Shown: positions 5,913-56,114 of the stretch, one piece after another
Position numbering within the stretch: position 1 is the first letter of the stretch
Layout: each line of letters starts with the position of its first letter
Assembly: GCA_903813345.2 (NCBI GenBank)
Contig: CAIIXF020000004.1
Location: 17,159,513-17,223,512 of the forward strand
Length of the DNA: 64,000 bases
Origin: Owenia fusiformis
Taxonomy: Eukaryota; Annelida; Polychaeta; Sabellida; Oweniidae
Direction: 5' to 3'
Notes under the pieces: model-generated
What the model was told of the DNA's origin: nothing
The model's input: the letters and a program-made list of their open reading frames with translations, nothing else
The model's database searches: none
Made by a program: the position numbers and the translations under genes

Positions 5913-5918
5913 TTAATA

Positions 5919-7103: not shown

Positions 7104-7105
7104 TT

Positions 7106-9636: not shown

Positions 9637-9784
9637 TGATATACTATTTTTGTTTTATTAAATACGACAGAAAGGAGCAAGGTGTAGGTTAAAAACAAGA
9701 CGTTAGTTTGTTTCATAACAGTTTGGAAACATTAATCTCTGATAATTTAAGGTTTTCCACTCCTGAAGGGCCTCTAGATCTATG

Positions 9785-16258: not shown

Positions 16259-19200
16259 CTATGTTGTAGTTGGAGTCCACTTCTCTTTCCTCCGCAGCCA
16301 GAGCCAACGTGAGCATGACTCTGCTGTGGCACCAATATCCTTAACGGCTTTCCTAAGATGGCTGGACCGTATTCCCAGGTCCTTCAACATGTGGCGTAAG
16401 GAGGCAGCTGGAAAGCCTCTGCAACCTACTTCAACTGCATGATGTCTGCAATTCCACCCTCTGGATTTTGCTTCGTCTACTAGGTCTTGGTAACGGGCAA
16501 TCTTCAGTTGGTGAGATACCTCTATTCTCTCCTCACTAGGTACAGTAAGTTCTATCACAAGGATGGTTTTGCTGTTTCTAGATAGAAGCACCATATCTGG
16601 TCTCTGTGTGGTCACTACGATATCTTGGGGGAACACTAGCTTTCTCCTGATGTCAACTTGGAGATCCCAGTCAGATGCTTTAGATAGGGTGGAAGGGGGT
16701 TCGGTGATCGTCTTCTGCTTGGATGATTTAGCCTGGCCTTCCTTTCTGAATTCTATGAATCTAGGCTTGGTTGAGACCTTCTGCTGATTGGCTTCAAGCC
16801 TTTCCCTATCAACCCATTTGGCTATTTCCTCAAGCACTTTGTCATGGCGCCACCGGTAACGACCTTCTGCTAGTGCTTTCGTGCACCCACTCAGGATATG
16901 TGAGAGAGAACAGTGTGCTGCAAGGCATTGTGGGCAGTTTGATGTTTCTTCTTTTCCCCAAGTTCTCAAGTTGGTTGGAGATGGCAAAAGATCAGTGAAT
17001 GCTCTGAGAAGGAAGCTGAGACGCCCCTGGTCAACAGACCAAAGATCTCTCCAGCCTAGTGATCGGTCCAGTATGGAGTCCCACCTGGTCCAATCACCCT
17101 GCTTGGTGAGTCCGATGGCTCTAACCAAGCGCTCCTCTTCCTCCTTCCTCCGCACCTGATGTACTATCCTGTCTCTCTTGTCTTTGGGGGTGGGCTGCTC
17201 CCACTGCTGTGGACCATAGTTTCCAAGTCCGAGCCGACCCTGGCATGTCACTCCCACGATTTGCTCAAGTTGAATGCGCTCTTCTGCCTCAGATACAGCT
17301 ACCTGCGGTTTCCACTTTCTGCCTGCCGTGATGGTTTCTCCTGTGCCATGGACATTGCTGTCGTGTGCAGAGCGGAGTGTGGCGACTGCTCTGACCTTAG
17401 CAACTTTAAACTCTTCCACGACAGAAGACAGTGGCAGAGACAGTTTGGAAGATGTTGAATACAGATTAACTGCACTGAAGCTTGGAGGGACTCCGAGCCA
17501 TCGTCTGAGATGTTTGCTGCACAACTTCTCCATAGCTTTCACTGTGGTGAGTGGAAAATCATACAGAAGAAAGGGCCATTGGAGTCTCGGGATGATGCCA
17601 AACTCAAAACACCAAGCCTTAAAACGTCCCTGTAGCTTGCTCTGGTCTATGACCTTCAGCCACCCCTTAAGTTGGTTCACAACGTCTGTGATGGAATTGA
17701 CGTCCTTGAGTGACTTGTCAAAGTACTTCCCTAGGCACTTTATCCTCTGTTCCTGTATGGTTGGGATGCGTGAGCCCTGGATCTTAAAGAAAGTACTTGG
17801 TTGTGTCTTGCCCTTGTAAATGACCAGGCTTCTTGACTTCTTGGGTTTGAACTCCATCCGAGCCCAATTGGCCATCTGCTCCAAGCCACCTAGTACCCAA
17901 CGGGTTCCGGGAATAGATTGAGTCATGGCTGTGATGTCATCCATGAAGGCAAGGCAGGTTCGATGTCGTGTCCCGTCCCTGGCTTTTGGACCTCTGCACT
18001 GTGCCTCCCCAGCTTTCAAAATCAAGTTCATGGCTGTAATGAAGAGGACAACAGAGACTGTGCACCCAGCCATAATACCTTTTTCCAACTGCTGCCATTT
18101 GGTGGTAAATTTGGCTGTAGTAAACTGCATTCTCATGCTGCCTAGGTGTTGCATGGCTAGATCTACTATCTCTTGTGGAAAGTGGTACTGCTCCAGAGCT
18201 GTTTTGATGAGCTGGTGTGGTACACTGGGGTAAGCCTTAGCCAGGTCTAGCCAGACTACGGCCAGAGTTGACTTGTCTCGTTGTGCCTCCTTGATGAGCT
18301 GGGTTATGGTTGCCGTATGCTCTAAACATCCTGATTGCCCGGAAAGTCCCCCTTTCTGGACACTGGTGTCAATGTATCCATTTTTCAGAAGAAATGCTGC
18401 TATTCTCTTGGCTACTATTGCCCAGAAGATTTTCCCTTCCACGTCCAGGAGAGAAATTTCCCGGAACTTGTCGAGGGTGGTGGAGTTTTCTTCCTTTGGG
18501 ACATAGCAACCTTCAGCAAGTGTCCATGTTGGTGGCAGAGCTTTGTCTTTCCAGACCAAACGCAACAGCTTCCACAGGCGATGCAGAAGTTTAGGGCAGT
18601 TCTTGTACACCCTATAGGTAATGCCTGTGGGTCCTGGCGCCGACCCCGCTCTAGCCTTCTTGACAATGGCCTTTACCTCATCCTGGGTGATGTCAGAGAG
18701 GTCAAATGGGGTATCTGGTTCTGGTGTTAAAAGCTTAACTGGACAGTCTCCTAGGGGGGTATCTCTTCCTGGATCACTGTGTGCTCTTGAAACATTCTCT
18801 TCTGCCTCAGCCTGGGTGCACTCCAATTGGCCGCTCTTTGGCTTTCCCAACAGTTCTGAGGTGAACTTGTAAGGATTCTTGAAAAATGCTTCTCGGCTTC
18901 TGCGCTTCTCCTTTGCTTTCTTCCTAAGGTTTTCCACCTGGCGAAGCTGGATGAGTCTCTTGCGATGGTGGTCTATGAGTTGTTTGAGGCCGACCTGTTG
19001 GATGTCATCAGCTCTTCTCCATTGCCTGCGGAGACCTCGGAGCTCTCGGCGAAGTTCTGCTATTTGTTGCTGTCGCCTGCTCGGGCCTGCTGGTTGCCTT
19101 GCTTGTCTCCGCTTGTCCTTATCACCAAACAAATCTTTGCACTCATCGAAGACTATGGTGGTCATCAATGCCAGCTTTTTCTGGGGATTGCCTTTTAGTG

Positions 19201-19585
19201 TCATGCCCAAGATGGTGTCTAGTGAGTCATCAAGCTCTTTCCATCTTGGATCTGCTGCAGGTGGAAACTTCAGTCGTGGTTTCCTCTCAATAACAGGCTC
19301 CATCCTCTCTCTTCTTCGTTGGCTTGCAGTGTCAGGATTTGCTACAGCCTGGAGGTCCTGGGCACTGTGGGGTGCTTCCGGGCCTGGGTCCTCCTCCGAC
19401 TTACTAGCAGCACTCTTAGTCGTGTTTGCTGCTATACGCTGTTGTAACAGAGCCTTACACTGCTTCTTCCTTCCTTGGTGTATTTTCACACCGAGCTCGT
19501 TCTTGAAAAGAAACAATATAAAGAAAAGTATATATACACGAGGGGTGATCAGGAATTTCTGGACCGTTCGCTCTATGTCTGCCAT
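16259..19585 (-). CDS. Non-LTR retrotransposon RT with restriction-like endonuclease
   Basis: The intact 1108-codon ORF encodes a reverse transcriptase that would copy its own RNA at a nicked chromosomal target. In order: a partial zinc finger (F27, H36, C43, lacking the leading Cys pair), basic linker, RT motifs (APGPTGITYRVYK near 316-328, W-L-D-L-A-K-A-Y with D447, G-I-M-A-G-C near 503-508, F-M-D-D at 547-550), a CCHC knuckle (C884, C887, H896, C901) and a restriction-like endonuclease with RHD (913-915), PD (996-997) and E1012. This domain order is that of the R2/NeSL/Hero group; the wording around F-M-D-D resembles Hero-type elements known from fish and marine invertebrates. The first ~25 residues come from a mariner-like sequence, so the natural start is probably lost and the element is 5' truncated. 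No internal stop is seen, which suggests recent insertion. It is distinctly more GC-rich than the flanks. Confidence 0.85.
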   Translation of the reverse strand: MADIERTVQKFLITPRVYILFFILFLFKNELGVKIHQGRKKQCKALLQQRIAANTTKSAASKSEEDPGPEAPHSAQDLQAVANPDTASQRRRERMEPVIERKPRLKFPPAADPRWKELDDSLDTILGMTLKGNPQKKLALMTTIVFDECKDLFGDKDKRRQARQPAGPSRRQQQIAELRRELRGLRRQWRRADDIQQVGLKQLIDHHRKRLIQLRQVENLRKKAKEKRRSREAFFKNPYKFTSELLGKPKSGQLECTQAEAEENVSRAHSDPGRDTPLGDCPVKLLTPEPDTPFDLSDITQDEVKAIVKKARAGSAPGPTGITYRVYKNCPKLLHRLWKLLRLVWKDKALPPTWTLAEGCYVPKEENSTTLDKFREISLLDVEGKIFWAIVAKRIAAFLLKNGYIDTSVQKGGLSGQSGCLEHTATITQLIKEAQRDKSTLAVVWLDLAKAYPSVPHQLIKTALEQYHFPQEIVDLAMQHLGSMRMQFTTAKFTTKWQQLEKGIMAGCTVSVVLFITAMNLILKAGEAQCRGPKARDGTRHRTCLAFMDDITAMTQSIPGTRWVLGGLEQMANWARMEFKPKKSRSLVIYKGKTQPSTFFKIQGSRIPTIQEQRIKCLGKYFDKSLKDVNSITDVVNQLKGWLKVIDQSKLQGRFKAWCFEFGIIPRLQWPFLLYDFPLTTVKAMEKLCSKHLRRWLGVPPSFSAVNLYSTSSKLSLPLSSVVEEFKVAKVRAVATLRSAHDSNVHGTGETITAGRKWKPQVAVSEAEERIQLEQIVGVTCQGRLGLGNYGPQQWEQPTPKDKRDRIVHQVRRKEEEERLVRAIGLTKQGDWTRWDSILDRSLGWRDLWSVDQGRLSFLLRAFTDLLPSPTNLRTWGKEETSNCPQCLAAHCSLSHILSGCTKALAEGRYRWRHDKVLEEIAKWVDRERLEANQQKVSTKPRFIEFRKEGQAKSSKQKTITEPPSTLSKASDWDLQVDIRRKLVFPQDIVVTTQRPDMVLLSRNSKTILVIELTVPSEERIEVSHQLKIARYQDLVDEAKSRGWNCRHHAVEVGCRGFPAASLRHMLKDLGIRSSHLRKAVKDIGATAESCSRWLWLRRKEKWTPTTT
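19530..19580. mobile_element. Mariner-like terminus at LINE 5' junction
   Basis: The sequence tatatatacacgaggggtga followed by tcaggaatttctgga resembles a mariner-family terminal inverted repeat next to a TA site. A related terminus, tatatacgaggggtgatcaa, occurs at 49652-49671. It supplies the ATG and first residues of the retrotransposon ORF. Confidence 0.5.
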
Positions 19586-19617
19586 TTTTTATCCTTTCTT
19601 ACTGATTTTTTCACATA

Positions 19618-20952: not shown

Positions 20953-21452
20953 NNNNNNNNNNNNNNNNNNNNNNNNNNNNNNNNNNNNNNNNNNNNNNNN
21001 NNNNNNNNNNNNNNNNNNNNNNNNNNNNNNNNNNNNNNNNNNNNNNNNNNNNNNNNNNNNNNNNNNNNNNNNNNNNNNNNNNNNNNNNNNNNNNNNNNNN
21101 NNNNNNNNNNNNNNNNNNNNNNNNNNNNNNNNNNNNNNNNNNNNNNNNNNNNNNNNNNNNNNNNNNNNNNNNNNNNNNNNNNNNNNNNNNNNNNNNNNNN
21201 NNNNNNNNNNNNNNNNNNNNNNNNNNNNNNNNNNNNNNNNNNNNNNNNNNNNNNNNNNNNNNNNNNNNNNNNNNNNNNNNNNNNNNNNNNNNNNNNNNNN
21301 NNNNNNNNNNNNNNNNNNNNNNNNNNNNNNNNNNNNNNNNNNNNNNNNNNNNNNNNNNNNNNNNNNNNNNNNNNNNNNNNNNNNNNNNNNNNNNNNNNNN
21401 NNNNNNNNNNNNNNNNNNNNNNNNNNNNNNNNNNNNNNNNNNNNNNNNNNNN
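20953..21452. other. Assembly gap of exactly 500 N
   Basis: Five hundred unknown bases, a round number typical of a placeholder. The true length is unknown. It removes the 3' end of the glycosyltransferase gene on the minus strand. Confidence 0.98.
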
Positions 21453-21867: not shown

Positions 21868-22339
21868 CTAAAAAGCAAAACAGACGATCATAGACGACAT
21901 GGTGTTATATGAATGTTATAAAGGATCGATTGATTGATTGATTATTGTTAATGCCCAATCGTCAATCATCCGATTGTTTGTTTGTTTGTTTGTTTGTTAA
22001 TTTGTTTTTGTTTTTCGTTTGTTTTCTCGGTATATGATTTGTTGATTTATTTAAAGCCCCCCCCCATAAAGTTTAAACCACTTTGGCTTTTATTGTAGGC
22101 TTACCCAATGTTATCAAAGTGTGATATGTGAAACTTTTTTTTATTTCAAAAAGTGTTTTTTGAAGAATTTTTTGTTCGAAAAATCGAGTGTTTATTTAAA
22201 ACTAACCCTTAGGGGTTACACGTATCTTTTAATAAGGGAAAATCTCTAAAAAAAACTTTTAAAGTCATGACAAATCGTAAATGAATAATTAAAACACATT
22301 TTCAAACCTTACACGGGGACTTTTAGCGTTTCGACTCAC
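21868..22339 (-). other. Intron of the GT77-like gene
   Basis: 472 bp. On the minus strand the donor is aaaa followed by gtgagt and the acceptor is tttttag followed by cc. The junction is phase 1 and keeps the frame. The intron is AT-rich with (GATT)n, (TTTG)n and poly-C runs at about 21927-22070. The exon 1 frame meets a stop only 18 bases after the donor, which is why the gene looks truncated if left unspliced. Confidence 0.75.
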
Positions 22340-23663
22340 TTTTGTTTAGCGATGATCGCATAAGTACCATACCCATATTTATTGTCCTCAGTTGCCAATA
22401 AGAAACTAGAGAAAAAGGATAACGACCATTTTGGGAACCAATCAGATCAGCTCTAGGAAACCTATCAAACACATCACTTGGGTGATGGACGGGCAGAGCA
22501 TCAGTATCAAACGTCACAATATCATATCCAAGATAATTAACCAATCTCCATAGCAACACTCTGCTTATCCACATCATTTGTTTGCGCTCTTGCTTTTCGC
22601 TCTCTTTGGAAAAACTAATAGTGACATTTTTAGTTTTGCGTAGTTCATCAATGTTATAATATAAACAGCTTACGTTTATTTTTCTATTATCAAGAAACTC
22701 GCAAACCTCAATATCTTGACTATATACAAGTATTCTACCAATAGGTGGGATGCATAGTTGCCTAGCAACAATTATCCAATTGATAAGAGATGGGAGATAA
22801 TGATAAGTTATACCAATACTATATACCATTCTATCTCGAAAAGATTTCAATTTGTTTCGCAAATCGTAAAATACGTGAGCGTGTTTTAGTTCAGAAAATG
22901 GTTTAAAGAAGTTTTCAAATGGCAATATAATTTTCTCGCGAGGATTTAATTCCAAATTTTCAACTACTCGTCCACACATCTTGTCAACCCTATCAGCACA
23001 TACTTTTCTTGCAGATCTTCTCTGAAAAGCAGAGGAACGAAACAGGATCTCCGTTATGTTTATATCCGCTGGAACCTGACGCTTTCGATTTTTGGTTTCA
23101 TACTTTTTGAGGAATGTTTCGTATTTGGATCCAATAGCTTTAATCGCTTTCGTTTCCTCATTGGTAAGTTCATTGTCAATGTTCAGTTCTGTGCAAGATG
23201 TTTCGTTTGCTTCTTTAATCGTTATATTAACTAAGTCTTGTATTTCTTCAAATTTAGGAATGACATTCCTGAAACTGAATGACCAGTTGAACGCTGGATT
23301 TCTGTATTGTTTAACTGGCGTCTCTTGAATATTAACCAAGCCTTGTCGTATTTCCTCAAATTTAGGAGTGACGTTCCTGAAACTGAATGACCAGTTGAAC
23401 GCTGGATCTTTGTATTGTCTAACTGGCGCCTCTTGAATATTAACTAAGCCTTGTCGTATTTCCTCAATTTTAAGAGTTACGTTCCTGAATCTAAATGACC
23501 TATTGAACGCTGGATTTCTGTATTGTTTAACTGGCGTATCTTGAAAATCTATAAAATTAATTCCAAGTATTCCAATGCACATAAGTATAACAATAACGTG
23601 AAATTTTCTTTGAACAAGGACGTAATAAACTGAATACATTGTACAACGTTTTAGTCCATACAA
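22340..23663 (-). CDS. GT77-like glycosyltransferase, exon 1
   Basis: Encodes the first 441 residues of a predicted Golgi type II membrane enzyme that transfers sugar from a nucleotide sugar; donor and acceptor are not predictable. In order: a short cytoplasmic tail, a membrane anchor (about 21-38), three tandem 36-residue repeats (about 40-146, each with P-V-x-Q-Y and A-F-N-x-S-F), a stem with several N-glycosylation sites, and the N-terminal half of the catalytic domain. D-T-D at 386-388 sits in G-Y-D-I-V-T-F-D-T-D-A-L-P, the metal/nucleotide-binding DxD of the Nucleotid_trans family. It then continues through I-G-S-Q-N-G and M-G-M-V-L-M-R-S. Met1 (23663) is the first in frame; Met9 is an alternative. 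The 108-bp DNA repeat is also visible at about 23275, 23383 and 23490. The exon ends at a strong donor. Confidence 0.8.
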
Positions 23664-23832
23664 ATAATGTGAATAAGATTGAATCCCAAAAACTATAATT
23701 TCATTGATACTTCTATAATAACATCACCGATAGTAAGCTTTAAATGTTATGCGATCAATTACATTATAACAACAATGGTGTTAGGCCTTAACGCTAGCTG
23801 ATAACAGAAATAGCAAATCCTCAACCGTCCAA

Positions 23833-24064
23833 TTAACCTAGGTTCAACTATTTGCATCAAAACTATGTAATGTTAATTGTTAAATGTCAACGATCCTTCC
23901 ATAATTTATTAATATGAATGTCAACTACGGATGTCGGGATAGTCCGACATTTTGTGGTCGTGAGTTATTTCAGGAAACAACTCCCTTTGCCAATATTTAC
24001 GTCCAACATGTTGTGCAAATTCATAATACGTCATTCAGCTACTTTTAAAGCATATTATATGTGA
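23833..24064. repeat. Direct repeat, copy 1 (232 bp)
   Basis: Begins aattaacctaggttcaacta and ends gcatattatatgtgac. Nearly identical to 24712-24956 in the same orientation; the second copy has a ~13-bp longer stretch around tgcatgtcaactacatg. The 650 bp between the copies holds repeat X, a (TTTG)n run and a hairpin. The ends do not look like LTR termini, so a local duplication is the simpler reading. Confidence 0.75.
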
Positions 24065-24195
24065 CTGCGACTCGTGTAGTATGTGGAAATGCTACGGTTA
24101 ATGTGACTGAGGCTTAACTGCTTAAGGGTCTTGTCTCCACAAGACATCATTCTCTATCCAAAGATCTCATTATCTCAAGTCATTAGGAAAATGGC
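24058..24195. repeat. Repeat X: uninterrupted target of the TTAA element
   Basis: The sequence from tatgtgactgcgactcg to cattaggaaaatgg is identical to the two halves flanking the 6.8-kb insertion at 34281-41074. The TTAA at 24122-24125 occurs once here and twice there. This is therefore the natural empty-site paralogue of that insertion. Confidence 0.85.
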
Positions 24196-24304
24196 AGGTT
24201 TGTTTGTTTGTTTGTTTGTTTGTTTACTACAAATCTGAAGAATACAATTCCTTTAAAAAAATCAATGAAAATTTATAAACATTATATACATGTTAATAAT
24301 ACTA

Positions 24305-24446
24305 TAAGTTATTCAATGATTCGAGTGAAATACAGAAATATTCTTCCCGAGAAGGTTGTATTTCACGATGCGCTAGCAGAGTGAAATACAGACGTTTAAG
24401 GGAAGAATATTTTCCGTATTTCACGAGAAATCATTGAATAACGTTT
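24305..24446. repeat. Fold-back MITE-like hairpin
   Basis: Arms 24305-24353 and 24396-24446 are inverted (gttattcaatgat, gtgaaatac and aatattcttccc on both). The loop is about 40 bp. Just upstream is a (TTTG)n run at 24199-24224. Confidence 0.65.
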
Positions 24447-24711
24447 TTAATCCATGATTACCCAATGGCATATAAAACTCGCCTAAACCAAGTCCCTTGG
24501 CTTGGGGCCAGAGAAACAGATCAACCTTCTCACCTCAGAGATATTTTACATCGATATTCCTTCAAAATCTTTATGGCCTTGTTGTTTGCTTTTTATTGTA
24601 TTATACGAGACGTTTGATTATCTTTCTTTTTTCTTCAATTTCATCAGCTGGAAGTGTAGTGTAGTGTAGCGAAACGTTTTTACGACTTTCGTCTGCCATA
24701 TTGGATTTTAA

Positions 24712-24956
24712 AATTAACCTAGGTTCAACTATTTGCATCAGAACTATGTAATGTTAATTGTTAAATGTCAACGATCCTTCCATAATTTATTAATAATTAT
24801 GCATGTCAACTACATGTACGTATGTCGGGATAGTCCGACATTTTGTGGTCGTGAGTTATTTCAGGAAACAACTCCCTTTGCCAATATTTACGTCCAACAT
24901 GTTGTGCAAATTCATAATACGTCATTCAGCTACTTTTAAAGCATATTATATGTGAC
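24712..24956. repeat. Direct repeat, copy 2
   Basis: Second copy of 23833-24064. After tatgtgac the two copies diverge: copy 1 continues into repeat X, and this copy continues into unrelated sequence. Confidence 0.75.

Positions 24957-32056: not shown

Positions 32057-32103
<47 letters not shown>
32057..32103. repeat. 47-bp poly-C tract
   Basis: Forty-seven consecutive C, the longest homopolymer in the window. Such tracts are prone to sequencing-length error. The overlapping poly-Pro and poly-Gly ORFs are artefacts. Confidence 0.95.
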
Positions 32104-32269: not shown

Positions 32270-34210
32270 TCATATTAGGTGGTCCCAAGTTGACAGCCCT
32301 GGTAAACTGACTGGGATATTTCTAGAGTTTTTAATTCCCAATCTTTCATACTTTCAGACCTATTAAAATAATGAATTTTAATGGTCATTAAGAACCCCTA
32401 CTAGGCTAAGAGTGTTGCTAGTAAATATATATTACATGAAGTCTAGTTTACAAACCTCTATGAATTTAATGGAAGTAGTGTATCCATTGGTGTTGACATT
32501 TTTCCACCATCTTCATCATTGGGATTGCATGGACATCAATCGAAAACCTCCTAGTTCTAGTATAGGCCTAAGTCTCTAATTTCTGTCATGTCTTATTCTT
32601 TCATCTGCAAGAATCACATATACATGTATATATATTGATTGCACATTGGATGTGGTGAATATTTTAAAAGTACTGTACATAAAAAGTGTTTTTAGTTTCA
32701 ATTTGTAGACCCAAAATTGAGACAAATCAAGTCTTAAATCATGTATTAATTATTTGGGTATTTCTTGGTTTTATTTACAATAGAGTCAATAGGCCTATAT
32801 AATAACACTACATGGCTTAAAGTCTTCAGGAATTTCAGGAAAAATGGACCAAAATCTAACCTCATTGAGTATTTGAGTTCAATACAAATTTAAATTTATT
32901 TTAGGGGGGGGGGGAGTCAAGCAAGGGTTTCAAAATAAAGGTCATATTTGTAAATATTTTCCTAAGATAAGAATTTTTCCTCCAAATTAGAAAGTAAATA
33001 TAATGGGTCTACATTACTTTCAAAAGCACTCAATCAGTTTTTCAAAAATTTCTTGGGAGAGGAAAAAATCCAAAATAACATAATTAGGCCTACCGCAGAT
33101 ATTATAAAGATTTGGTTTAGATACGTCAAATTGATTTTGGTATTTATGTTTGTCATTTGAATAGGCCTAATTTATTTTTCAAGGAATTTCATCACCTAGT
33201 AAAGTACTTCTAACATGTCTAGATCTATGAAGGAAATTGATCTAGAAAAAAGGCCAAGATTCACATTTTTCGCATCATCAAGGATATGACAATTGAATTT
33301 GCGAAAGAAATATTGAAAGTTTGACTTCGATATCGAAGGAAAATATTGGTACACATCCTTACTTTTATTTTATCGACATTTTAGATTCATTCATTACCAT
33401 ATTTGGTATTGAAAGGAGTCAAAGTGGCTCGTGGACCCATATTTGTGATCCCAGACCATATAAAGTCCGCTCGATGAAGAAAAATACAAGGAGTTGGGCT
33501 TAGCAACTGCACATGCAATGAGATAGGACCATGCTCCATAAGAAATAAGAATATGAAAAAAAAACATAAACATCCTTAGCACACAGACGCTGAAAACTGA
33601 AAAATCATTCGGAAAAATGGACCAAAAATAACCCACAAAATTATTGATAAATTTTACAGATTGAATGCAATATTGATCAAATTTTGACATTTGTTCAACC
33701 ATACCATGGTCCTAACATAGACGAAAGGATATCTTCCAAAACCAAAGGGACGCTGGTATAATTCAACGAACGCTTGCCGTAAGAAAACACGTGTACATAT
33801 TTTGATCAACTTCAAGTGGATTTTTTATAAAAAATATCCAGAAATGTCCATATAATCTGATATCATTTTAAAGCTATTGATCCCAGGAATACAAATAATT
33901 AGTTCATTTGAATCTTACCTCAATACAACTGAAGATATTGGGAGAAATGTGCGGAGCGTGCACATTCCGGTTTCCATTTTAGGAAGTGTCGTGGCGTCTC
34001 ATTTCTTGTTATATCCGGGTCAATACGTTGCATAGCAACTCTCATTGTACGTGCGTCTCTGACGTGAATATGATAGCTTTCGCGCACCACATAAAGTTTG
34101 CGCTTCTACAGCGTATTTAAGAACCTATAGATCATTTTCCAATGAGTAAGCACTCAACCATTTCAAACTGGCAAGAGACATGGCCGAAAGGGTTCCGCGG
34201 AGTAATTCTT
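32270..34210. other. AT-rich spacer
   Basis: No gene recognised. Several TAGGCCTA words occur here (about 32563, 32789, 33085 and 33163). A 102-codon ORF at 33394-33702 (minus) has no recognisable domain. Confidence 0.4.
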
Positions 34211-35034
34211 CCCCTGTATGTGACTGCGACTCGTGTAGTATGTGGAAATGCTACGGTTAATGTGACTGAGGCTTAACTGCTTAAAGGGAATGCGAAGTTT
34301 TGTCCCATAAACTTGATAATAAGTTAGAATAAAGATACATCTTTCAATCCAACTTCGTTTTATTGTTCTATCATTATCCTTTTAATTGTTATTGAGCCCC
34401 GGGTTTTGCATATGAACTGGACCACGGAGCTGCCATTTCAACCGTAAAGTGGTTCTTTACGACATTGTTATGACGTCATTGATGCCAGGTTGATGCCTTG
34501 GCATTCCAAAAGTATTGTGGCGCCATTTTTGAATCAAAAAATGAATGCCGATTTGTTGCCATTCCAAAACCAAATAAATCATTTTAAAGGAACTAAAAGA
34601 ATACGTATTTACCACCCATAATAAAGAACGATTTCAATAGAATATTAACGCCGTCATTTTCGGAATTGCTTTTTACCTAACTAGACATGGAATGCAGGTT
34701 ACATTTATTCTTTATTTACACTTGAAACAATCTGGGATTCGTGACTTTTTAACTTTTATTAGGTCTAGCGCTAAATGCGAACAGAGAATGCTAATTCTAT
34801 CAGGCGAATGCAAACTATTTGAATAAAACACAATAAAATCAATTCAACCAACCCATCGTGAATTTCCAAGAATCTCGGTGATGATTTAATTTGCTAGTCT
34901 AATTACAAAAATACGTGTTCGTACTTTAATATTCATTGCATTTATGTTTATCTTTAACACAAGTATTCGAAGAAATTTTTAAAATTAAATTTTAAAACCG
35001 TATTCAATTACTATCATGGATTCTTAGCCTCACG

Positions 35035-35580
35035 TCACATTTTTACGGGGACCGTACGGTCTTTCATTTCTGTGGTAAGTAGAATTTCTACGGTTGCCTG
35101 TAGTAAGTATTTCTGCAGTCAGGTAATTTAGCAGTCACATTTGCTAAGATAGCTGTACGGCGTATCTTGATTATGAGGAAAAACTACGATTCCGTACGGC
35201 TGATAAATGATGACGCACGATCAGCGTAGGGCAGCCCTACGACGTGCGTAGTTTTTTAAGGCATCCACAAGGGGTTCTATGGTTCGGAAAGGTCAATTGT
35301 AACCTATGAAATCCAAGGACAGCCGCAAGTCGACCATGAAACCGACGTACGGCCGTCGTGGGACCTACGGTTTGGTTGCTGCTTGTTGATATCTACGGTG
35401 ACCACAGGAAAGAAAAAGTTTAAACTCCGACTCTACGCCCTGTAAAAACAGGATATGCCGTGTACGTAGACCGCAAGGTGACCTTAAGTCGACTGTAGTT
35501 TTCCTATGTTTGCCGCAGGAATTTACTGATTTCAAGGAAATACGATCGACGTGTGGTCGCATTGAGCAAATGTGACTGAA
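35035..35580. repeat. CGTAG/CCGCAG repeat family, copy 2
   Basis: Opposite orientation to 1430-2050, with the same TACGG, ccgcaagg and aatgtgactg vocabulary. Lies inside the TTAA element. Repeat X carries the related words gctacggttaatgtgactg. The ORF at 35365-35562 is a by-product. Confidence 0.5.
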
Positions 35581-35826
35581 GCTTTTAAAGTTCCACTCAT
35601 TTTCCGATATAGAAAAACAAAAGGTTATATGCCATTAACTTGAAAATCATTATTTGGGAAATACTCTAGAACTGTACTTACCACGGATTTTATATAATTA
35701 AATTTGAGCTCGAAATCAGGAATTGTTTTTAACAAAAAATAAATATAGTACTATAATAAAATAAATATTAAAATATTGGCGTATTATCAATACGGCAATC
35801 GCCTTATTGTCGTTGAAATGAAATAT

Positions 35827-38741
35827 CACTGGGGAGTATCGTGATGCAACAACACCGTGTTGTTGCATCAAGATGGCCAGACTTCCGGTGATAGATTTTC
35901 GTACGATATTTTGTTTCCCCAATTAAACCCATTTCTAGGACGAGTTGGTCAACAACCATACACGTGCAGTTAGCGCACGATCTATATTTAAAGAAACTGT
36001 CATTAGTATACATGTACCATCACCAAGAAGCAATAAGTTCACGGTTTTAGTTCCTCACTATTGATGCAACAACACCAAACCGAAGATGCAACAACACTCT
36101 TCTAGATTTGAGCAATGATGCAGCAACACCAATCAATAGTATAATTTCAGAAGACCATAAATCTCGAGAGGAACAGATTTTTAAATGCTACCATTGCAAT
36201 ACCGTTACCAATTAGCCTACCCATATTTGCGTTCTTCTCAAGGCATTCAAAATACACGTCCTGCGGGCGAAGATCCTTTATATGTTTTTTCAAAAATTTA
36301 TACTTTTACATATTATAATGCACTGGACGTTATTCTATAACATAGTTCAATCGCCTTTAACATGGCAAGCTTTAGTAACCCAATCTATTTTCATAAACCT
36401 CTGTTCCATAGCTTGATGACCCCGACTCCAGATCATTCAAAATGGTGGACAAACATCTTTCGTTCTCGGTAAACATGATGAGCTACTACTGATTGGATAT
36501 TATCATGATATTATCTGTCATCCATCTGTGGAACAGTGATAAACTAGTAGATGTACGTTACCACTGTTTATCAAATTATAACTAAAACAGTTTAACTGTG
36601 ACATTCGTGAGCTTATGTTGATGGGATGATTGCTTCATCTATGATATAATATGACATGATTCTTTATTTCCTACAATTTGGAGAGCCAACGTGTAAAAAC
36701 GTCTAATTGACTTTATTAGAGAGGCCGTTTAGTTACACGTTTAATGGAAATCTTGCACGACGCACATGTAGAATTATTGCTCTCTTTGGATTCCTTCTCT
36801 CCGACTGAGTAAAAAGGTAAACAAAAGTGATAAGATTTAGGGCCCAAAAATGTAAATTGATAGGGGTACAGTTATCCCAGATATCCCGGGCCCTCGGGAA
36901 ATATCATATTGTCTCTCGAAATAAAACCAATATTGAATCCCTCTCAGTAAATAACTTTTATATACTAGTAATAGCATTGTATAACTGCAATATCATTAAA
37001 CCAACACTCATCCTATACAACTCTTGAGAACGATGTACAACTCCTGGATAGCGTAAACTCCTGAGCAGCGTATACAACTCTTCAACTTGATATATGACAT
37101 CATACTTTGGGTGGGATAACAAAGGATATACAATATACAAGTGTAGACCCCTCTTGAGGTCAACTGGCAAAATTGTATACCGATATTGTAAACCTTGAAA
37201 GTACTGTTGATCAAGACCAGAGGTCGAGGACACTTTTGCCAGTTGACCGAAAAGAGAGGTTAACAATTGTTCTGTTAGTCCAAATAATATAATAATTGGA
37301 CGAATATATAATCGAATATCACGTGAACATATTTGATAAGTAAAGGTATCATATTTTAGCAAAAAATCCCCAAACCGTCGAATACTTGTAATTTTTTACA
37401 CAACTTATTTTTTCAAAATTAAAAAAATTTCAACATTAAAAAAACAATTTTTCAAAAATAGGGGTCAACAGTATCTAGTAGTGGTCAACAGTTTACAATT
37501 GTTGACCTCCCCAGGGGCCAACCGGTAAAATTGTATACCGAGACTGAAAACCGAAAAATACTGTTGACAAAGACCGAAGGTCGAGGTCAACAGTAGTTTC
37601 AAGGTTTACAGTCGAGGTATATGATTTTGACGGTTGATCGAATGGAGAGGTCTACAATTGTTTTGTTAGTCCGAGTAAACTAATAATACACATATAGACG
37701 ATCATCAATCGGCATGGCTTCATTTCACAACCTTTTCTCCGAACCACGTTAGCAATATTTTTTTAGAAAATATTGAGACAGTGCAAGAAGCTTAACTCTG
37801 TATCACGGCGTACTCGTTAGTGAATTACTGTTAATTTTAAGTTTCTATATGTATTTTTGCTATACTTGTCGCCTAGTAAACTCATTTTCATCAACATTTA
37901 CAAAATGTCCGTCTTCCATGTGTTTTCGTGACGTCATGAAACTTTTTTCAGAAGTAGCGGTCAACAGTACCTAGTAGCGGTCAACAGTACATAATTTTGA
38001 CCGCTAATCACCCAATCAGAATCGAGTATTTCAGTTGAGGTACTAACAATACATTTTGTTGCCCGCTCATCAACCAATCAGAATTGAGTATTTCAATTGA
38101 GGTACTAACAACACAAAATGACTGATATCTGTTGTCTTTCCAAAATTATATTAGTTATTTGTAAGCAATTTTCATACGGTAAATCAAGGGCATTTAATTT
38201 AGAAAATGTACAATCTTTATTTTTCAGATACAATATCAATGAGATTGCCTCCCGGGGATTCTGTACTTTATTTAGTTTGCCTTGTATATCCTTTTAACTT
38301 TGATATAGACAAAGAAACCAAACAAAATACGTTTCGTTCATGGACCACTGACTCACGCGTTTTATTCATGTCCCGACCTACACCTGTAAACAGAACATAA
38401 AACAGTTTCTCTTGTTGTTCAATGATACATTATATTGGCGTTTTTGCATCAGCACATTGGTGTTGTTGCATCATCGATAAGAAACAGAGTGGTGTTGTTG
38501 CATCAATAGTGAGGAATTAAAACCACGAATTTATCGCTTCTTAATGATGCTACATGTATACCAATGACAGTTTTTTAAAATATAGATCATGTGCTAACTG
38601 CATGTGTATGATTATTGAGCAACTCGTCCTAGAAATGGGTGTAAATTGGGAAAACAAAACATCGTACGAAAATCGATCACCGGAAGTCTGGCCATCTTGA
38701 TGCAACAACACGGTGTTGTTGCATCACGATACCCCCCAGTG
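35827..38741. mobile_element. 2.9-kb CACTA-like element with subterminal repeats
   Basis: The ends read cactggggagtatcgtgatg and, inverted, cactggggggtatcgtgatg. The 5-bp sequence aatat flanks both sides (35822-35826 and 38742-38746). Inverted similarity runs about 270 bp inward. The word gatgcaacaacac is repeated in the terminal zones (about 35842, 36063, 36085 and, with one change, 36118 on the left; in reverse complement near 38461, 38492, 38701 and 38713 on the right), as expected for transposase-binding subterminal repeats. CACTG ends suggest the EnSpm/CACTA superfamily, though those usually make 2-4-bp target duplications. No transposase ORF is present, so it is non-autonomous. Confidence 0.75.
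37157..37675. repeat. Internal ~120-bp direct repeats of the CACTA-like element
   Basis: 37157-37285 and 37514-37675 share aaaattgtataccga, a tactgttga-x-aagacc block, aggtcgagg and acaattgtt-t-tgttagtcc. They account for the 134- and 68-codon minus ORFs here (36958-37362 and 37008-37214), which have no recognised domains. Confidence 0.55.
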
Positions 38742-39863
38742 AATATCATACTACAGTACAATGGACCCCATCGTCTCCCACGCATCACTGAATGTTATAG
38801 CCTTCTCTTGTCATGATCCAAGGCGAAATACCATTACTGAATTTTGAAAAGCTTTTTTTTGTCGTATTGAATTTCGCTATTAGTGTGATATGATGATTGA
38901 AATTAGTCGTTTAACAACTGAGAAAAATTAAACATTACGTATTATTCTTTGAAACTATGACAGTGGCATGTCCTTGTAAAGCTATTGCCAATCTTAATAT
39001 TTAGGAGATTGACATTTACATTTTACATACGTTTCATTTAGACGACATCGATTTTTCGTTTTTATGTTTGCGTTTTTCATCAGAATTTAAATGGTTAAAC
39101 ACTTTAGGGAGTTACTGTTTCATTGGATTACTACTTTTAGTTTTATTTCTTTCATTCTCCAATATGCACCTATTCATATTTGAAAAGAATACTACAGACT
39201 GAAGAAATCTACCATTTATGATTAGGTAAGAAAGCGGCAGTATGCCATTTGCCGACGTATACCTTATCATATAAAATAATTCTAGTGGATATTTTTCAAG
39301 TGGAATATAATGCGATAACTTTCAGTCAAAACCAGTTAAATTGCGAATCGCGCTGCCGATATCTCATAAGTTTAGTGATTTTTCTACCTAGCCTATACTA
39401 TATCATATTGGAGAAAATAAATACAAACGTTTGAAAAAAGACATTGCAACAATTCAATTTCTATGAAGAATATATTGGAACAACCTTTCCAAATATATAA
39501 TATGATATGGACATGAACATGCGGCAACAATGTTAAGCGGACAGAAATAGTTATAAAATATCAGTGAAATGTGTTCTATTTCTGCGATCCGAGTATGTCG
39601 TGATTATATAGCGACACTTCCCAGCACGGACCTCTGCCAGAAAAGCTCCTCTGTGTCTAGGCTCAATAAATATACTCAAGGACAAGACACGAGATCTTCG
39701 GAAAATTTATTTTTCCTTGATTTTGGAGTCAGTTTTTCTATAAATATCACATGTCATACCTCAAACGATGCGTACTGTTGTTACCTTCAACTCCAATCAC
39801 TAAAGCCAAACATCCAAGAAAGCGTCTGTTGATAAAAGCATAAAATAAGCGAGCGTATATTTA

Positions 39864-40128
39864 ATGGAGCACTTCGGCTATCTCCGTTGTTCAAATGATT
39901 ATTCCCGAAGTAAAATGCCTTTTCTGAGAATGTGACGCCACTCCGGATGACGTCACATCAGAGATTACCGAGAAGTCCCATGACGTTTCTTCAAACTCCC
40001 GTAGAAACAATAACGACGGTTTATTAGGCTACGCGATTCTTTACTTTCATTGGCTCTTTGTTGCGATGTGACGTAATTTGAGAGACGAACAACATCGGAC
40101 ACTGCCGGAAATTACCGAAGTGCTCCAT
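39864..40128. mobile_element. 265-bp TA-flanked MITE
   Basis: Ends atggagcacttcgg and ccgaagtgctccat are exact inverted repeats of at least 14 bp, and TA lies at both borders (39862-39863 and 40129-40130). The interior is non-coding and contains tgacgtcaca. A TA target fits a Tc1/mariner-type MITE. Nested in the TTAA element. A related core, gagcacttcggct, appears alone at about 60189. Confidence 0.75.
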
Positions 40129-40489
40129 TATCTTTACGCTCTGAAAATTTGAAATAAATGTCCCGGGAAAAGTCGAATTACAGCGTCAATAATGGATATC
40201 ATGCAACCATTCAAACTAATACATAAAGAAGAGATTACAGGGTAAATATTGATCAATCAATGTCTGACAGATGGAAAAAATAAGGTCAGTACGAGTGTCA
40301 TATTTTTGGGTGGTCATTTTTTTGATGTGCCATTTTTGGCTCGTGTCTCATCTTCCCATTTATCCTTTGAGCCTACTACCAACAGGGGCTGGATCTGGCT
40401 CCGGATCTGTGCTTCCCAGGCATCAATTTTAAGGCATCAATGACGTCATTGATACATAAGAATGGCGGCATCCGCAGCGATCCAGATAT

Positions 40490-40935
40490 GGTTGAAGATC
40501 ACAGTAGAGTTTCCCATAGGTGGCCATTATAACATTTTACCCTGTATCTTATTAACGATTAGTATCCGAGCCTAGTGCAACATACCACAGTGTTCGGGAG
40601 AGACTCGCCTAGCCTGCTATAACAATCTTACCATGGGTTGTCCACCGAATTTTTGAAATAAATAGACTAGACACTAACCCCCTCTATCGTCAGATTTCTC
40701 AGAGAATTCTGGTAAAATCACCAAGGTCAAAATCACTCCGCCGCCAGCTTAAAATGAGATTTCCGACTGAACTCTGACATGTTTTCAGATAAATTAGGAC
40801 CTACCCTATAAATATTTAGTCCCGGTTCACTTCCCAAACGCTAGATGGCGCTCCAATGGGGTAGGGAAGGAGAAAATGACTTTTTATTCAGAAAACCAAA
40901 TCACTAACGGTAACCGCTAATGTCCTTACTCAGGA
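40490..40935 (+). repeat. Repeat A, copy 3 (solo)
   Basis: Same unit as 5455-5912 and 7106-7552, alone and without block C, inside the TTAA element. If A is an LTR, this would be a solo LTR. No clear target duplication was found around it. Confidence 0.65.
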
Positions 40936-41424
40936 CTATATCCTATGGGTACTTTGAACTTGAATTATTTGTTAGTTCAAACACAATATGTCCCAGGAGT
41001 GAGCTGAAGTGATAGATGATGGTTATAAGTAGTCAGCGTGTAAATTAGAACATGAAACTTCGCATTCCCTTTAAGGGTCTTGTCTCCACAAGACATCATT
41101 CTCTATCCAAAGATCTCATTATCTCAAGTCATTAGGAAAATGGGGAAAATTAGGAATATCCAAGTGCTCGTTCACGACCGTTGTCTTCGAGACCTTGCAT
41201 TCCTCTACCTCAGACGCAAATGGAAATAGAAATTAGGCCCGGAAAAGGTAGAGGTAGCGATGACAACACAACAACATCTAATGCGCGAGAGAATCTGGAG
41301 ATGTTTGAAAACGTGGTTTTAACCACATGGGTCAACCAGAAATTCTATAGTTCAACATCTAAGACTTGGAGATTAAAACAATACATGTATACGGACATTG
41401 TGTTCAAACTACTGGTTGAGGATT

Positions 41425-43374: not shown

Positions 43375-43438
43375 CATTAATATATTCTTGCTGTAAAATC
43401 AGTCTGCTTTAACTTTAAAAAATTGTACAGATTTTATG

Positions 43439-44590
43439 TTAAACATTTTTATTTAAACATTTTGTGTTCCAAGTTTTTCTAATTTCTCTTGGTGATACAC
43501 GGTGGCTAGTGATTATTATTTTTTGATTCCAACACGCATTACGTTTCAATTTCTTATTGAATTCTTTCACCGAGCGTACTTTGTATCCCAATGCTTCATT
43601 ACAAAGTCCAACATAAACATCTTCAAAAAAGAAGAAGGGTATATTTGGTGAAACTCTCGCAATGCCTTTGACGACCTCCATAGTAGTGACATAGCCTGCG
43701 CCGCCTAAACAGTAGGGAGGGTACGTCAAATGAGGGTATTGGACAGGAGAGACGTAATACTTTAATGTCTCATTCCTCCTTGGTATAATATGCTGTGCGC
43801 ATTTTCCTATAATTTCGTTTTCAATTTCGAATGAATCGATGAGTTGTAAAAGCTTTGGAGTATTCACATACGTATCAGTATCCGTTTTCATAACATATTT
43901 AGCATTTGAGCAGAAATCTGATGCCCATTTTAGACCAGACATTGTTTTTAGAGTCAAGTTATTGTATACATCCATGAAATCTTTGATGATAATATCTCCA
44001 TATATTTTAGCTTCTTCAAGAGCTCTCATATTCCACGTCGGGTCTTTAGCGTGCTTCCCTAATACGAAAACATACCTCAGTTCTCCTGTGTTCTTGTTAG
44101 AAATACTTGTCCAAGTTTTGCGAACCGTGGTTCTATTGTGCGTTTCACTAACTGCAGTTAAAATTATTATAAGTAATTTGACCTGAGTTGTAGAATTATT
44201 CGTTGAGCACAAATTATCATTTTTGTAGATGTACGAAGATTGCGGAAAACATGCATCACACGTATCTGGTCGTACTTCTGAAATGTTAACTGATTGGTTC
44301 ATAGAGAAATTACCACTTTTCAAAACTTGTTGATAATCCAAGAATATGGAACTCGTTTTCCTTGTCGTCTGATTATTTCTTTGTGTGTTATTTTTATCAT
44401 TATCGGTAACATTTCTTTTATGTTCATTTATTCCATTTCCAGTAATAAATGTTCGTCTTCTAGAGAATCCAACTAATAATTTATCTAGTTGACCATATGA
44501 GGCTTGTGTCTGATATAGTCCTAGTAATATAAGCATAGATGATACTATGCATAAGACAAATATTAATATTTTATAAATTCGTATTAACAT
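43439..44590 (-). CDS. GT31 beta-1,3-galactosyltransferase-like enzyme, copy 1
   Basis: The single-exon 383-residue protein is a predicted Golgi type II membrane glycosyltransferase adding galactose or GlcNAc in beta-1,3 linkage to glycan chains; the exact donor and acceptor are unknown. Visible features: membrane anchor at about 8-25, an Asn-rich stem with many N-X-S/T sites (about 50-135), then the GT31 domain with the core strand at 137-146, R-K-T-W at 157-160, the D-F-x-D-x-Y-x-N-L-T-L-K-T motif at 204-216, the metal-binding D-T-D at 237-239, C-L-G-G-A-G-Y at 294-300 and E-D-V-Y-V-G at 323-328. All key motifs are intact and the length is normal for the family. The start is the first Met before the anchor. 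It belongs to a tandem array with 54478-55626. Confidence 0.9.
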   Translation of the reverse strand: MLIRIYKILIFVLCIVSSMLILLGLYQTQASYGQLDKLLVGFSRRRTFITGNGINEHKRNVTDNDKNNTQRNNQTTRKTSSIFLDYQQVLKSGNFSMNQSVNISEVRPDTCDACFPQSSYIYKNDNLCSTNNSTTQVKLLIIILTAVSETHNRTTVRKTWTSISNKNTGELRYVFVLGKHAKDPTWNMRALEEAKIYGDIIIKDFMDVYNNLTLKTMSGLKWASDFCSNAKYVMKTDTDTYVNTPKLLQLIDSFEIENEIIGKCAQHIIPRRNETLKYYVSPVQYPHLTYPPYCLGGAGYVTTMEVVKGIARVSPNIPFFFFEDVYVGLCNEALGYKVRSVKEFNKKLKRNACWNQKIIITSHRVSPREIRKTWNTKCLNKNV

Positions 44591-44937
44591 ATTGATTGGT
44601 CAGATTTCTTGCATTCCCTTACACTCTATCGTCAGAAATATCCTGTGTTCTTTCTCATCCCTATTTACTGACTGTTTCCAATACTTTGAAACAGTTAGAT
44701 ATACTTATTCAAATCCATTGGAATTTTATTAAGCTATTGTGGAGTTAAACCGGGGTCCTTTTGTGAATAAACCCTTTACAAAAACAAGCCAATTTTCAGA
44801 TTTAAAATCGTATTTGTACACCAATGGGTAAAACTGATTTGGCCATTTAGCACATGAAAGTTATTGAAAGTTGTGTAAGGAAGCTTTATGTTTTGCACCC
44901 CTCTCTCAGACAGAAGCTTGGAAAACAAAGAATATGT

Positions 44938-53209: not shown

Positions 53210-54477
53210 CCTGTGGTAATTATAGGTCATCTCAATCACCAACATTGAATGAATGCTGTAAACACAGTGTTTAAAAGAGACAATTTCAAATTCTTTCCTT
53301 TTGAGAGGATTTATGTATTGTGTTTCGCCATAACATGGAGAACAGAACTATCAACAAAATTTCCTTTTATTAAGTATCATCTACACATGTGTGAATATAA
53401 CTGAGTACCCAACATGCCTTAGTTTATAAAATGTCACGAACTCTAATTGAAAAATGATCGCGCGCATACAAATCCGTATCGGTCGTTTTGTTTATCACAG
53501 TCTTCATATGCTATTATTCCACTTTATCCAAAACCAAGGCGTTGTTGTTTGGGATATACCCTGTGCGCAGAGACTAGTTAAAAACGAGAAGACGAAGCTC
53601 TCTTTTGAGAAGCAAAGTCGAAGACAATTTCTGAAATATCAAATGAAATTGGTTCAAATCTCTATTCATTGGAGTGCTGTTAAAAAAGAAACTTCTGTCA
53701 TATTTGATAAAAAAGAAACCATTTCTTTTAAGCCTTTCCTATATTTTCCCGATCTTCCAGGTTTATCTGCATAAAATCAAGCCTAATGACATGGACATTA
53801 CATGGGCCCTAATGTAATACTATATCTAGTAATTAAACAATGCAAACATGCAAAATGTCACCACCTGCCATCTGTTACAGAGGCCAAACGCCTACCACCA
53901 AGCGTCAAACGCCGTTACAAAAATGTTGGAGTCCATAACAATATGTCACCACTTTTGGTGGTGACATGAAAATTACTACAGGGTGTCCAAAAACAGAGTG
54001 TTTAAAAAATTGTACCATAACAAACATGGAATATTACTGTGAGTGATGAGAGCGGATCATCTGAACAAATTGTCTTTATCATGTGATAAGTTCAGTTTTT
54101 TCGATGGTATTTTCAATGGTACTTTTCTAGATTATGATAATTTCATACACAATACATAGTCAATCTGTATGATTTCATTTCCCAAGAATTGTTTCGTAGA
54201 ATCCATTGAAATTTTAAAGAATATTTTGGTAAAATAGCGAATTATTGAAACTGAAAAAGGTTTCCTGGAAAACCTTTTTAACTGGACATTTAAGAACAAT
54301 CACTGTTTCATAGTTTCGTAGAATTAAAACTTTTGTAATTGTTATGATTAAGTCAATATACTGATTTTGTGAAGTGCCCAAAATATGTTTGACTTTGGAA
54401 TGATTTTAAAAATATTCTTGCTGTGAAATCAATCTGATTTAACTTTTAAAAATTGTACAGATTTTATGTTAATTTTT
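53210..54477. other. 3' flank of GT31 copy 2 (duplicated block)
   Basis: Matches pieces of 41814-43160 (see that entry). It contains a small MITE-like unit at about 53860-53968 with ends atgtcaccacc and ggtggtgacat (a related unit lies at 59614-59762) and a mariner-like acagggtgtccaaaaacag at about 53979. A 106-codon ORF at 53454-53774 is not recognised. Confidence 0.5.
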
Positions 54478-55626
54478 TTATTTTAAACATTTTGTGTTCC
54501 AATATTTCATCATTTCTCTTGGTGATAAACGGTGACAAGCAATTATTCTTTTTTTAACCCAACACACATTAAGTTTCACTTTAAAGGTTTTAAATCCTTC
54601 CATCCAGCGTACTTTGTATCCCAATGCTTCATTACAAAGTCCAACATAAACATCTTCAAAAAAGAAGAAGGGTATATTTGGTGAAACTCTCACAATGCCC
54701 TTGACAACCTCCATAGTAGTGACATAGCCAGGACCGCCAGTACAGTAGAGAGGGTACGTCAAATGAGGGTATTGCACAGGAGAGACGTAATACTTTGATG
54801 TCTCATTCCTAATTGGTGAAATACGATTCTGGATGCATTTTCCTAGTATTTCGTTTTTAATTTTGAATGAGTCGATGAGTTGTAAAAGTTTTGGAGTATC
54901 CACCCATATATCAATGTCAGTTTTCATAACATATTTAGCATTTGAGCAGAAATCTGATGCCCATTTGAGACCAGACATTGTTTTTAGCGTCAAGTTCTCG
55001 TATACATCCATGAAATCTTTGATGAGGATATCTCCATGTTTTTTAGCTTCTTTAAGAGCTCTTGTATTCCGCGTCTGGTCTTTAGCGTGCTTCCCTAATA
55101 CGAAAACGTACCTCAGTTCTCCTGTGTTCTTGTTAGAAATACTTGTCCAAGTTTTCCGCAATGCGGTCCTATTTATCATTTCATGAGGTGCAGTTGTAAT
55201 TATTATTAGTAGCTTGACCTGAGTTGTGGAATTATTCGTTGAGCACAAATTATCATTTTTGTAGATGTACGAAGATTGCGGAAAACATGCATCACACTTA
55301 TCTGGTCGTACTTCTGAAATGTAAACTGATTGGTTCATAGAGAAATTACTACTTTTCAAAACTTGTTGATAATCCAAGAATATGGAACTGGTTTCCCTTG
55401 TCGTCTGATTCTTTCTTTGTGTGTTATTTTCATCATTATCGGTAACATTTCCTTTATGTTCATTTATTCCATTTCCAGTAATAAATGTTCCTCTTCTAGA
55501 GAATCCAACTGATAATTGTTCTGGTTGACCAGAAGAGTCTTGTGGCTGATATAGTTCTAGTAATATAAACAAAGTTGATGGTATGCATAAGACAAATATG
55601 AATATCTTATAAATCCGTATTAACAT
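54478..55626 (-). CDS. GT31 beta-1,3-galactosyltransferase-like enzyme, copy 2
   Basis: Paralogue of 43439-44590: single exon, 382 residues, the same predicted Golgi topology (anchor about 8-25, Asn-rich stem) and the same order of GT31 motifs (R-K-T-W at 157-160, D-F-x-D-x-Y at 204-209, C-T-G-G-P-G-Y and E-D-V-Y-V-G). Most of the protein is nearly identical to copy 1, but differences cluster in the catalytic domain: the metal-binding site is D-I-D (237-239) followed by I-W-V-D instead of D-T-D followed by T-Y-V-N. The strand before the N-R-T motif reads T-T-A-P-H-E-M instead of L-T-A-V-S-E-T. Both outer Asp are kept, so activity is plausible, perhaps with altered specificity. The duplication includes about 0.5 kb of 5' flank and over 1 kb of 3' flank. 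Confidence 0.9.
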   Translation of the reverse strand: MLIRIYKIFIFVLCIPSTLFILLELYQPQDSSGQPEQLSVGFSRRGTFITGNGINEHKGNVTDNDENNTQRKNQTTRETSSIFLDYQQVLKSSNFSMNQSVYISEVRPDKCDACFPQSSYIYKNDNLCSTNNSTTQVKLLIIITTAPHEMINRTALRKTWTSISNKNTGELRYVFVLGKHAKDQTRNTRALKEAKKHGDILIKDFMDVYENLTLKTMSGLKWASDFCSNAKYVMKTDIDIWVDTPKLLQLIDSFKIKNEILGKCIQNRISPIRNETSKYYVSPVQYPHLTYPLYCTGGPGYVTTMEVVKGIVRVSPNIPFFFFEDVYVGLCNEALGYKVRWMEGFKTFKVKLNVCWVKKRIIACHRLSPREMMKYWNTKCLK

Positions 55627-56114
55627 AATGATTGACTTCTTGCATTTTCCTACACTCTATCGTCAGAAATATTCTGTGTTCTTTCACATCCCTATTTAAT
55701 GACTATTTCCAATACTTTGAAACATTTATATATACTTATCCAAATCCATTGGAATTTTATTTAGCTATTGTGGAGTTAAACCGGGGTCCTTTTGTGAACA
55801 AACCCTTTACAAAAACAAATCCATTTTCAGATTTAAAATCGTATTTGTATACCAATCGGTAAAACTGATTTGGCCATTTAGTTCATGAAAGTTATTGAAG
55901 GTTGTGTTTAAGGAAGCTTTATGTTTTGTTTTGATTTATGTTTTCCGAGTTGGGAGAGGTTTGACACATGTCATCTGGTCAATTGCCCGTTCATGACCCT
56001 CGTTGTCTTTTGAAATGGGCAATGTTTTGCACCCCTCTCTCAGACAGAAGCTTGGAAAAGAAAAAATATGTAGAAGCAGTGTTAGCAGGCAGAATGATTA
56101 TTTTTACTCGGCTT

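Follow-up and report, generated by a model that had tools for sequence, protein, structure and literature searches.

A non-autonomous Kolobok-type element carrying nested insertions in Owenia fusiformis, its likely transposase source and a nearby copy of its empty target site

The piggyBac elements, which use a TTAA target, end in CCC...GGG and have a DDE domain that corresponds to Pfam DDE_Tnp_1_7. Kolobok elements, as set out in a passage of PMC9587614, likewise generate TTAA duplications but differ from piggyBac by their 5'-RR/YY-3' termini, and their transposases show DDE/D catalytic residues together with a C/DxxH motif; the KolobokP elements described in the same passage, from several marine invertebrate phyla, carry long terminal direct repeats of ~450 or ~660 bp. 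The T2-MITEs (miniature inverted-repeat transposable elements) of Xenopus, assigned to Kolobok in a section of PMC6004289, combine the TTAA target with AGGRR, and these non-autonomous copies are thought there to depend on Kolobok transposases, which usually carry DDE, THAP and H2CH motifs. The element described here occupies 34285–41070 of a 64,000-nucleotide stretch (the window) of contig CAIIXF020000004.1 of the annelid Owenia fusiformis. It is almost certainly a member of the Kolobok superfamily carrying nested insertions, and a copy of its target site without the element is found in the same window. Its relatives were searched for in the whole assembly (498 Mb, 525 contigs).

34281..34284, no strand, left TTAA target-site duplication, read from the sequence
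34285..41070, no strand, non-autonomous Kolobok-type element, 6786 bp, its three nested insertions included
34285..34300, + strand, left 16-bp terminal inverted repeat (TIR), AGGGAATGCGAAGTTT, identical to the right TIR
34285..34533, + strand, left 249 bp of the element, 89% shared with L056, an 8.1-kb element, at its left end
35827..38741, no strand, nested insertion 1, 2915 bp, ends CACTGGGG, 5-bp duplication AATAT
39625..40411, no strand, nested insertion 2, 787 bp, ends CACGGACC/CACAGATC, 8-bp duplication CTTCCCAG
40492..40943, no strand, nested insertion 3, 452 bp, 5-bp duplication TATGG
41055..41070, - strand, right 16-bp TIR
41071..41074, no strand, right TTAA target-site duplication, read from the sequence

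The two 16-bp TIRs, ending at 34300 and starting at 41055, match exactly and each adjoins a TTAA, so that the termini read TTAA-AGGGA...TCCCT-TTAA (AG...CT, i.e. AGGG...CCCT). Allowing up to 3 mismatches, the window has two occurrences of the 20-mer made of TTAA and TIR, whereas shuffled sequences average 0.01. The boundaries proposed in an earlier note on this DNA were confirmed by sequence comparison, and its remark that the element has no recognisable transposase of its own holds for this complete, TTAA-flanked copy. Where the note calls the element large, this is an effect of later arrivals: the copy is one of ~2.6 kb swollen by three nested insertions, all flanked by target duplications of their own, and measures 2614 bp once the inserts and these duplications are removed. 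Insert 1 has inverted ends of ~260 bp with 90% identity, and its first 374 bp are 98–99% identical to 39 other places (best 40 of 746 candidates scored). The duplication and ends of insert 2 form a pattern that we take to be hAT-like, and relatives of insert 3 lie within the window at 5454–5912 and 7107–7551.

When 33 other complete copies were compared, the insert 1 point was uninterrupted in 29 (L012 lacks ~29 bp there and has no insert; three have no flank), the insert 2 point in 32 (one has no flank) and the insert 3 point in all 33; the inserts of the window copy were found at these three points in none of them. About 350 bp present in most of the compared copies are absent from the window copy, near its position 4982. 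Three copies (L017, L026 and L028_29) carry a sequence resembling the insert 2 ends beside position ~5256, seen on one side only in L017, and they form a clade with a support of 1.000. As this sequence is shared at one place by members of one clade, copies loaded with nested insertions seem to be capable of moving.

The 6.8-kb segment is a copy of a non-autonomous family whose members mostly measure 2.3–3.0 kb. The exact 16-bp end occurs 159 times in the assembly (78+81; none for reversed-pattern controls) and, in a search that did not select for TTAA, this tetranucleotide directly adjoins 155 of these ends (76+79); the earlier note had proposed such a genome-wide search for the end beside TTAA. 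Among the four ends lacking it are C2:14211901 (partner of L043) and C6:26571743 (partner of L053). With up to 2 mismatches, the 20-mer is found at 96+98 places, against 0+1 for the reversed control. From 100 listed places among these 96+98, 88 ends were read: the pair of the window copy, 33 further pairs and 20 single ends. The 33 further complete copies fetched have identical ends; they represent at most 32 independent insertions, since L009_0 and L009_1, whose flanks are equal and whose tree distance is zero, represent a tandem duplication at one locus. Lengths of 2.3–3.0 kb are found in 19 of the 33 and of at least 2.3 kb in 32, twelve copies having been picked mainly for length; the shortest measures 1.4 kb. 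The earlier note had held that copies with other boundaries would speak against the element. None was found to do so, but this is a weak test because the copies were picked by their exact ends, common boundaries being expected; the less selective figure is that of the four ends in 159 without TTAA.

A 701-bp query from the interior gave 194 candidates, and none of the best 40 scored exceeds 94% identity to the window copy besides that copy itself. Sixteen of the 20 single ends track the family over most of the stretch or rejoin it; the others (L039, L043, L044 and L045) depart from it after 108–238 bp, and L039, L043 and L045 were inspected for open frames only. As to long copies being autonomous elements, no Kolobok gene was recognised by eye in the frames of at least 120 aa of the twelve copies chosen mainly for length. 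The open frames of L030_31 include a reverse-transcriptase-like one; L030 and L031 carry a nested retrotransposon-like frame of 931 aa with, in its N-terminal part, a DIEKNPGP motif similar to a 2A-type sequence.

The single end L044 led to a divergent relative whose THAP relic scores 22.1 bits (E 2.7e-4), short of the curated 23.9-bit cut-off. The 92-aa fragment of this relic has seven matches in the assembly, itself included, and the best two others lie in open frames of 192 aa. The longer copy encoding a DDE transposase that the earlier note had suggested looking for was thereby found, at least as a candidate:

C8:6792300-6800800 (fetched stretch 1-8501), L056, 8.1-kb element with exact TTAA and TIR at both ends

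The 192-aa frame of L056 encodes a complete THAP domain, which PF05485 matches at E 2.3e-14 and 54.4 bits (cut-off 23.9). A second frame, of 651 aa, matches PF20700, named 'Mutator-like transposase' (E 6.4e-9), its other Pfam match, WDCP (E 0.11), being below cut-off. When this frame was aligned with six distant relatives from the same genome (18–34% identity), D297, D364 and D387-V-Q-H390 (D387-x-x-H390) were invariant in the seven rows; the candidate third acidic residue is E in five of them, K in L066, and has no counterpart in the truncated row of L058. On the strength of this alignment and of the Pfam match, the 651-aa frame is predicted to be of the DDE type. Among 58 matches, from the best 68 of 91 candidates scored, there was no second close copy of it; identity falls to 35% for the match that comes next. 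The second THAP copy, L057, is 97–99% identical to L056 over long aligned stretches; the 651-aa frame is absent from it, its left end is altered and no right end was recognised. L056 resembles the family over 249 bp on the left, at 89%, and over ~545 bp on the right, at 84% (~95% in the last ~200 bp); weaker patches of 68–75% lie beside the latter. L056 would thus be the likely source of transposase for the family.

Taken together, target, termini, THAP domain and C/DxxH motif argue for the Kolobok assignment. TTAA adjoins 155 of the 159 exact TIRs and both sides of the window copy, both ends of this copy have the RR/YY form as AG...CT, PF05485 is present in L056, and the alignment of its 651-aa frame appears to reproduce the DDE/D residues and the C/DxxH motif. 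In their order, which was compared by eye, histidine and cysteine residues of L056 are compatible with the putative H2CH zinc finger; the assignment does not draw on this. Among the closest described systems is the T2-MITE of Xenopus (PMC6004289, as presented in the section cited), with which the family shares the TTAA target, the AGGRR terminus (here TTAA-AGGGA) and non-autonomous copies that would depend on a THAP/DDE Kolobok transposase. It differs from it by its own TIR sequence, by its non-frog host genome and by its size, as 32 of the 33 fetched copies reach at least 2.3 kb (twelve chosen mainly for length) and most measure 2.3–3.0 kb instead of being miniature; moreover, an 8.1-kb partner was found here whose exact ends are those of the family. 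The TTAA target and the 5'-RR/YY-3' termini are also those given for KolobokP in the passage of PMC9587614, but no long terminal direct repeats of that type were found in the window element, among 20 of the 22 direct-repeat families listed for 34000–41400.

The earlier note had read the element as a large non-autonomous piggyBac-type family. The TTAA target duplication, seen beside the exact ends, fits piggyBac as well as Kolobok, and it is the point that speaks for this reading. However, the termini are AGGG...CCCT instead of CCC...GGG, the family shares its ends with a THAP/DDE-type element whose DNA-binding domain is not that of piggyBac and whose two frames have no piggyBac match in Pfam (no piggyBac-type DDE domain appears in the 651-aa frame among Pfam matches up to E 1), and the size is explained by the nested insertions. 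AG...CT termini are, in the passage of PMC9587614, what separates Kolobok from piggyBac. Given these termini and the THAP and PF20700 domains of the partner, which fit Kolobok, the piggyBac reading was rejected and we consider it extremely improbable.

The most likely mechanism, as judged from the sequences, would be a cut-and-paste movement in trans by a THAP-DDE transposase, because of the ends shared with L056. It can be viewed as follows: a Kolobok transposase would be supplied in trans, most likely by L056 on C8 or by a relative; it would recognise the common ends and subterminal sequence of the non-autonomous element, which would then be integrated by cut-and-paste at a TTAA, with duplication of this TTAA. 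The family, with its 159 exact ends, and the 8.1-kb partner that has these same ends and whose THAP and DDE-type frames are open form, within one genome, a Kolobok pair of unusual clarity, in which trans-mobilisation becomes directly testable.

Known examples of related empty sites (RESites), i.e. copies of the target without the insert, serve as proof of transposition. A sequence of this kind, termed X, is found in the window next to a duplicated segment, R:

24058..24194, + strand, X, empty-site copy, 137 bp, TTAA at 24122–24125
34217..34284, + strand, left part of the occupied X, 68 bp counting TTAA
41071..41143, + strand, right part of the occupied X, 73 bp counting TTAA
23831..24065, + strand, R1, duplicated segment; its final 8 bp, TATGTGAC, are also the first of X
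24712..24956, + strand, R2, other copy of R, with a different sequence after TATGTGAC

The joined flanks of the element are identical to 24058–24194 over 137 of 137 positions, which sharpens the ~137 bp of identity seen by eye in the earlier note, and the insertion point there has a single TTAA, one more TTAA being located within X, 8 bp to the left. The 24-kb copy is therefore, as that note had proposed, the empty site of the element. X was found at two sites only, the occupied one and 24058–24194 (3 of 3 candidates scored, in a search that passes over very common words), and R, a local duplication of ~245 bp, at two places, R1 and R2, the latter 0.9 kb downstream; the R copies differ by 3 substitutions in 235 aligned bases and two indels. 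R1 ends with TATGTGAC and continues into X, R2 ends with TATGTGAC and then diverges, and the occupied X starts with TATGTGAC after another sequence. To the right of X at 34 kb, the first ~340 bases gave no match (best 40 of 249 candidates scored); to its left, no duplicated sequence was seen in a comparison with the window alone. The sequence 24299–24711, which runs up to the start of R2, is an abundant ~410-bp repeat that opens with an imperfect hairpin of ~135 bp; many of its matches reach 91–94% (best 40 of 724 candidates scored).

When two pieces that come from downstream and share one orientation overlap by 8 bp where they join, this is the kind of trace left by template switching during repair. 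In view of this overlap between R and X and of the lack of duplication beyond X at 34 kb, the 24-kb X is probably the derived copy, made from a template without the element. The following series of events can be proposed. A repair event between 23830 and 24195 would have copied R from ~0.9 kb downstream, then switched template through the 8 bp of microhomology to an unoccupied X ~10 kb downstream, leaving at 24 kb a 137-bp copy of the pre-insertion sequence. We regard this origin of the 24-kb copy as probable. The earlier note had instead seen X as a repeat that may have spread; if X were a small dispersed repeat or mobile element, the 24-kb copy would be an ordinary paralogous empty site, and the (GTTT)7 tract that follows this copy might pass for a retroposon tail. 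However, X was found at two sites only in the search described above, no target duplication was seen by eye at either copy, and its 5' boundary is the 8-bp overlap with R. X thus appears to be the product of a local rearrangement; the repeat reading was rejected on the number of sites found and seems very unlikely. The copy resembles RESites in being a target without insert and differs from them in being the two-site, local product of an apparent template switch and not a dispersed repeat. Template-switch repair could in this way keep a record of the unfilled target close to the filled one, and such sites, a trap if read as ordinary repeats, might offer a dating tool.

The whole explanation (a Kolobok element, its nested inserts and an empty site made by template switching) is held with good confidence, although several points weigh against it. 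About 1.6 kb of the family interior has no match in L056, the THAP and 651-aa frames of L056 are presumed to form one gene, and mobilisation in trans is proposed from the shared ends. The Pfam name of the catalytic frame refers to Mutator (PF20700) and not to Kolobok, and no named Kolobok protein entered the comparison. The copies read cover part of the family, five pairs and two single ends among the 100 listed places having been left out. Finally, the X/Y junction at 24194/24195 has no microhomology obvious to the eye, and a single assembly underlies the ancestral order proposed for 24 kb.

The order of insertion and copying can be approached through the private branch of the window copy, which reaches 2.4% in a tree of 34 copies. 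If the X copies had been diverging on both lineages since an insertion of that age, 0 differences in 137 would have p ~0.0014 and at most 3 in 372 (X and R pairs) p ~2e-5, these values assuming equal neutral rates and the private branch being an upper bound on the time at the site. From these low values, the copying of X looks younger than most of the private branch of the window copy. Either the element arrived after X had been copied, bringing older mutations with it, or the template chromosome was without the element. The nested inserts, absent at their points from the 33 other copies, favour neither version.

If X was duplicated first, the element would have jumped recently into the 34-kb X, already carrying part or all of its nested insertions. 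The differences between the X copies (0 in 137) and the R copies (3 substitutions in 235) lie well below the 2.4% of the private branch, which may have accrued at an earlier site, and the clade formed by L017, L026 and L028_29 (support as above) suggests that loaded copies are mobile; yet none of the 33 other copies has the window inserts at those points, and no donor was seen, since no copy is closer than 94% among the best 40 of 194 candidates scored. We find the balance for and against this order about even. Alternatively, the element already occupied X and the 24-kb copy was later templated from a homologue without it, through insertion polymorphism or precise excision. The same X and R distances fit this order, and three nested insertions suggest time in place, but an empty allele must have persisted or been regenerated, and allele exchange is needed for flanks with 0 differences in 137 should the insertion date back as far as the private branch permits; this order is possible, though we hold it tentatively. 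A bolder extension of it, on which we are slightly more doubtful, is that the 24-kb copy records an element-free chromosome after settlement at 34 kb, through insertion polymorphism or through a precise Kolobok excision that restored TTAA before the template switch. If so, given the one catalytic frame found and the ends kept exact at ~150 places, the family would be a Kolobok system that is still active, made of two parts and served by one master element.

The surroundings of the element comprise several coding frames and repeats.

22323-23723, - strand, open frame of 466 aa with a nucleotide-diphospho-sugar transferase domain (E 6.2e-6)

R1 and X lie ~110–470 bp upstream of the 5' end of this frame, which contains 108-bp (36-aa) tandem repeats at 23240–23545. 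The element itself sits between it and a galactosyltransferase frame (PF01762) at 43439–44599 (- strand). The latter is related to a second one at 54478–55656 (- strand), and the pair is located in a duplicated stretch with 89% identity (43379–44895 and 54409–55928). The window also has a 1.3-kb inverted duplication (8401–9741 and 14450–15793; 99% identical, ~5 kb apart). An inverted pair of minisatellite arrays with a CTCAACCCCAAGTAAA-like unit (12654–12794 and 13276–13415) may mark the two ends of an element of ~760 bp. The 500 N at 20953–21452 probably represent a scaffold gap; at 32057–32103 there are 47 consecutive C. The frame at 16259–19588 (- strand, 1109 aa) resembles, by eye, the reverse transcriptase of non-LTR retrotransposons.

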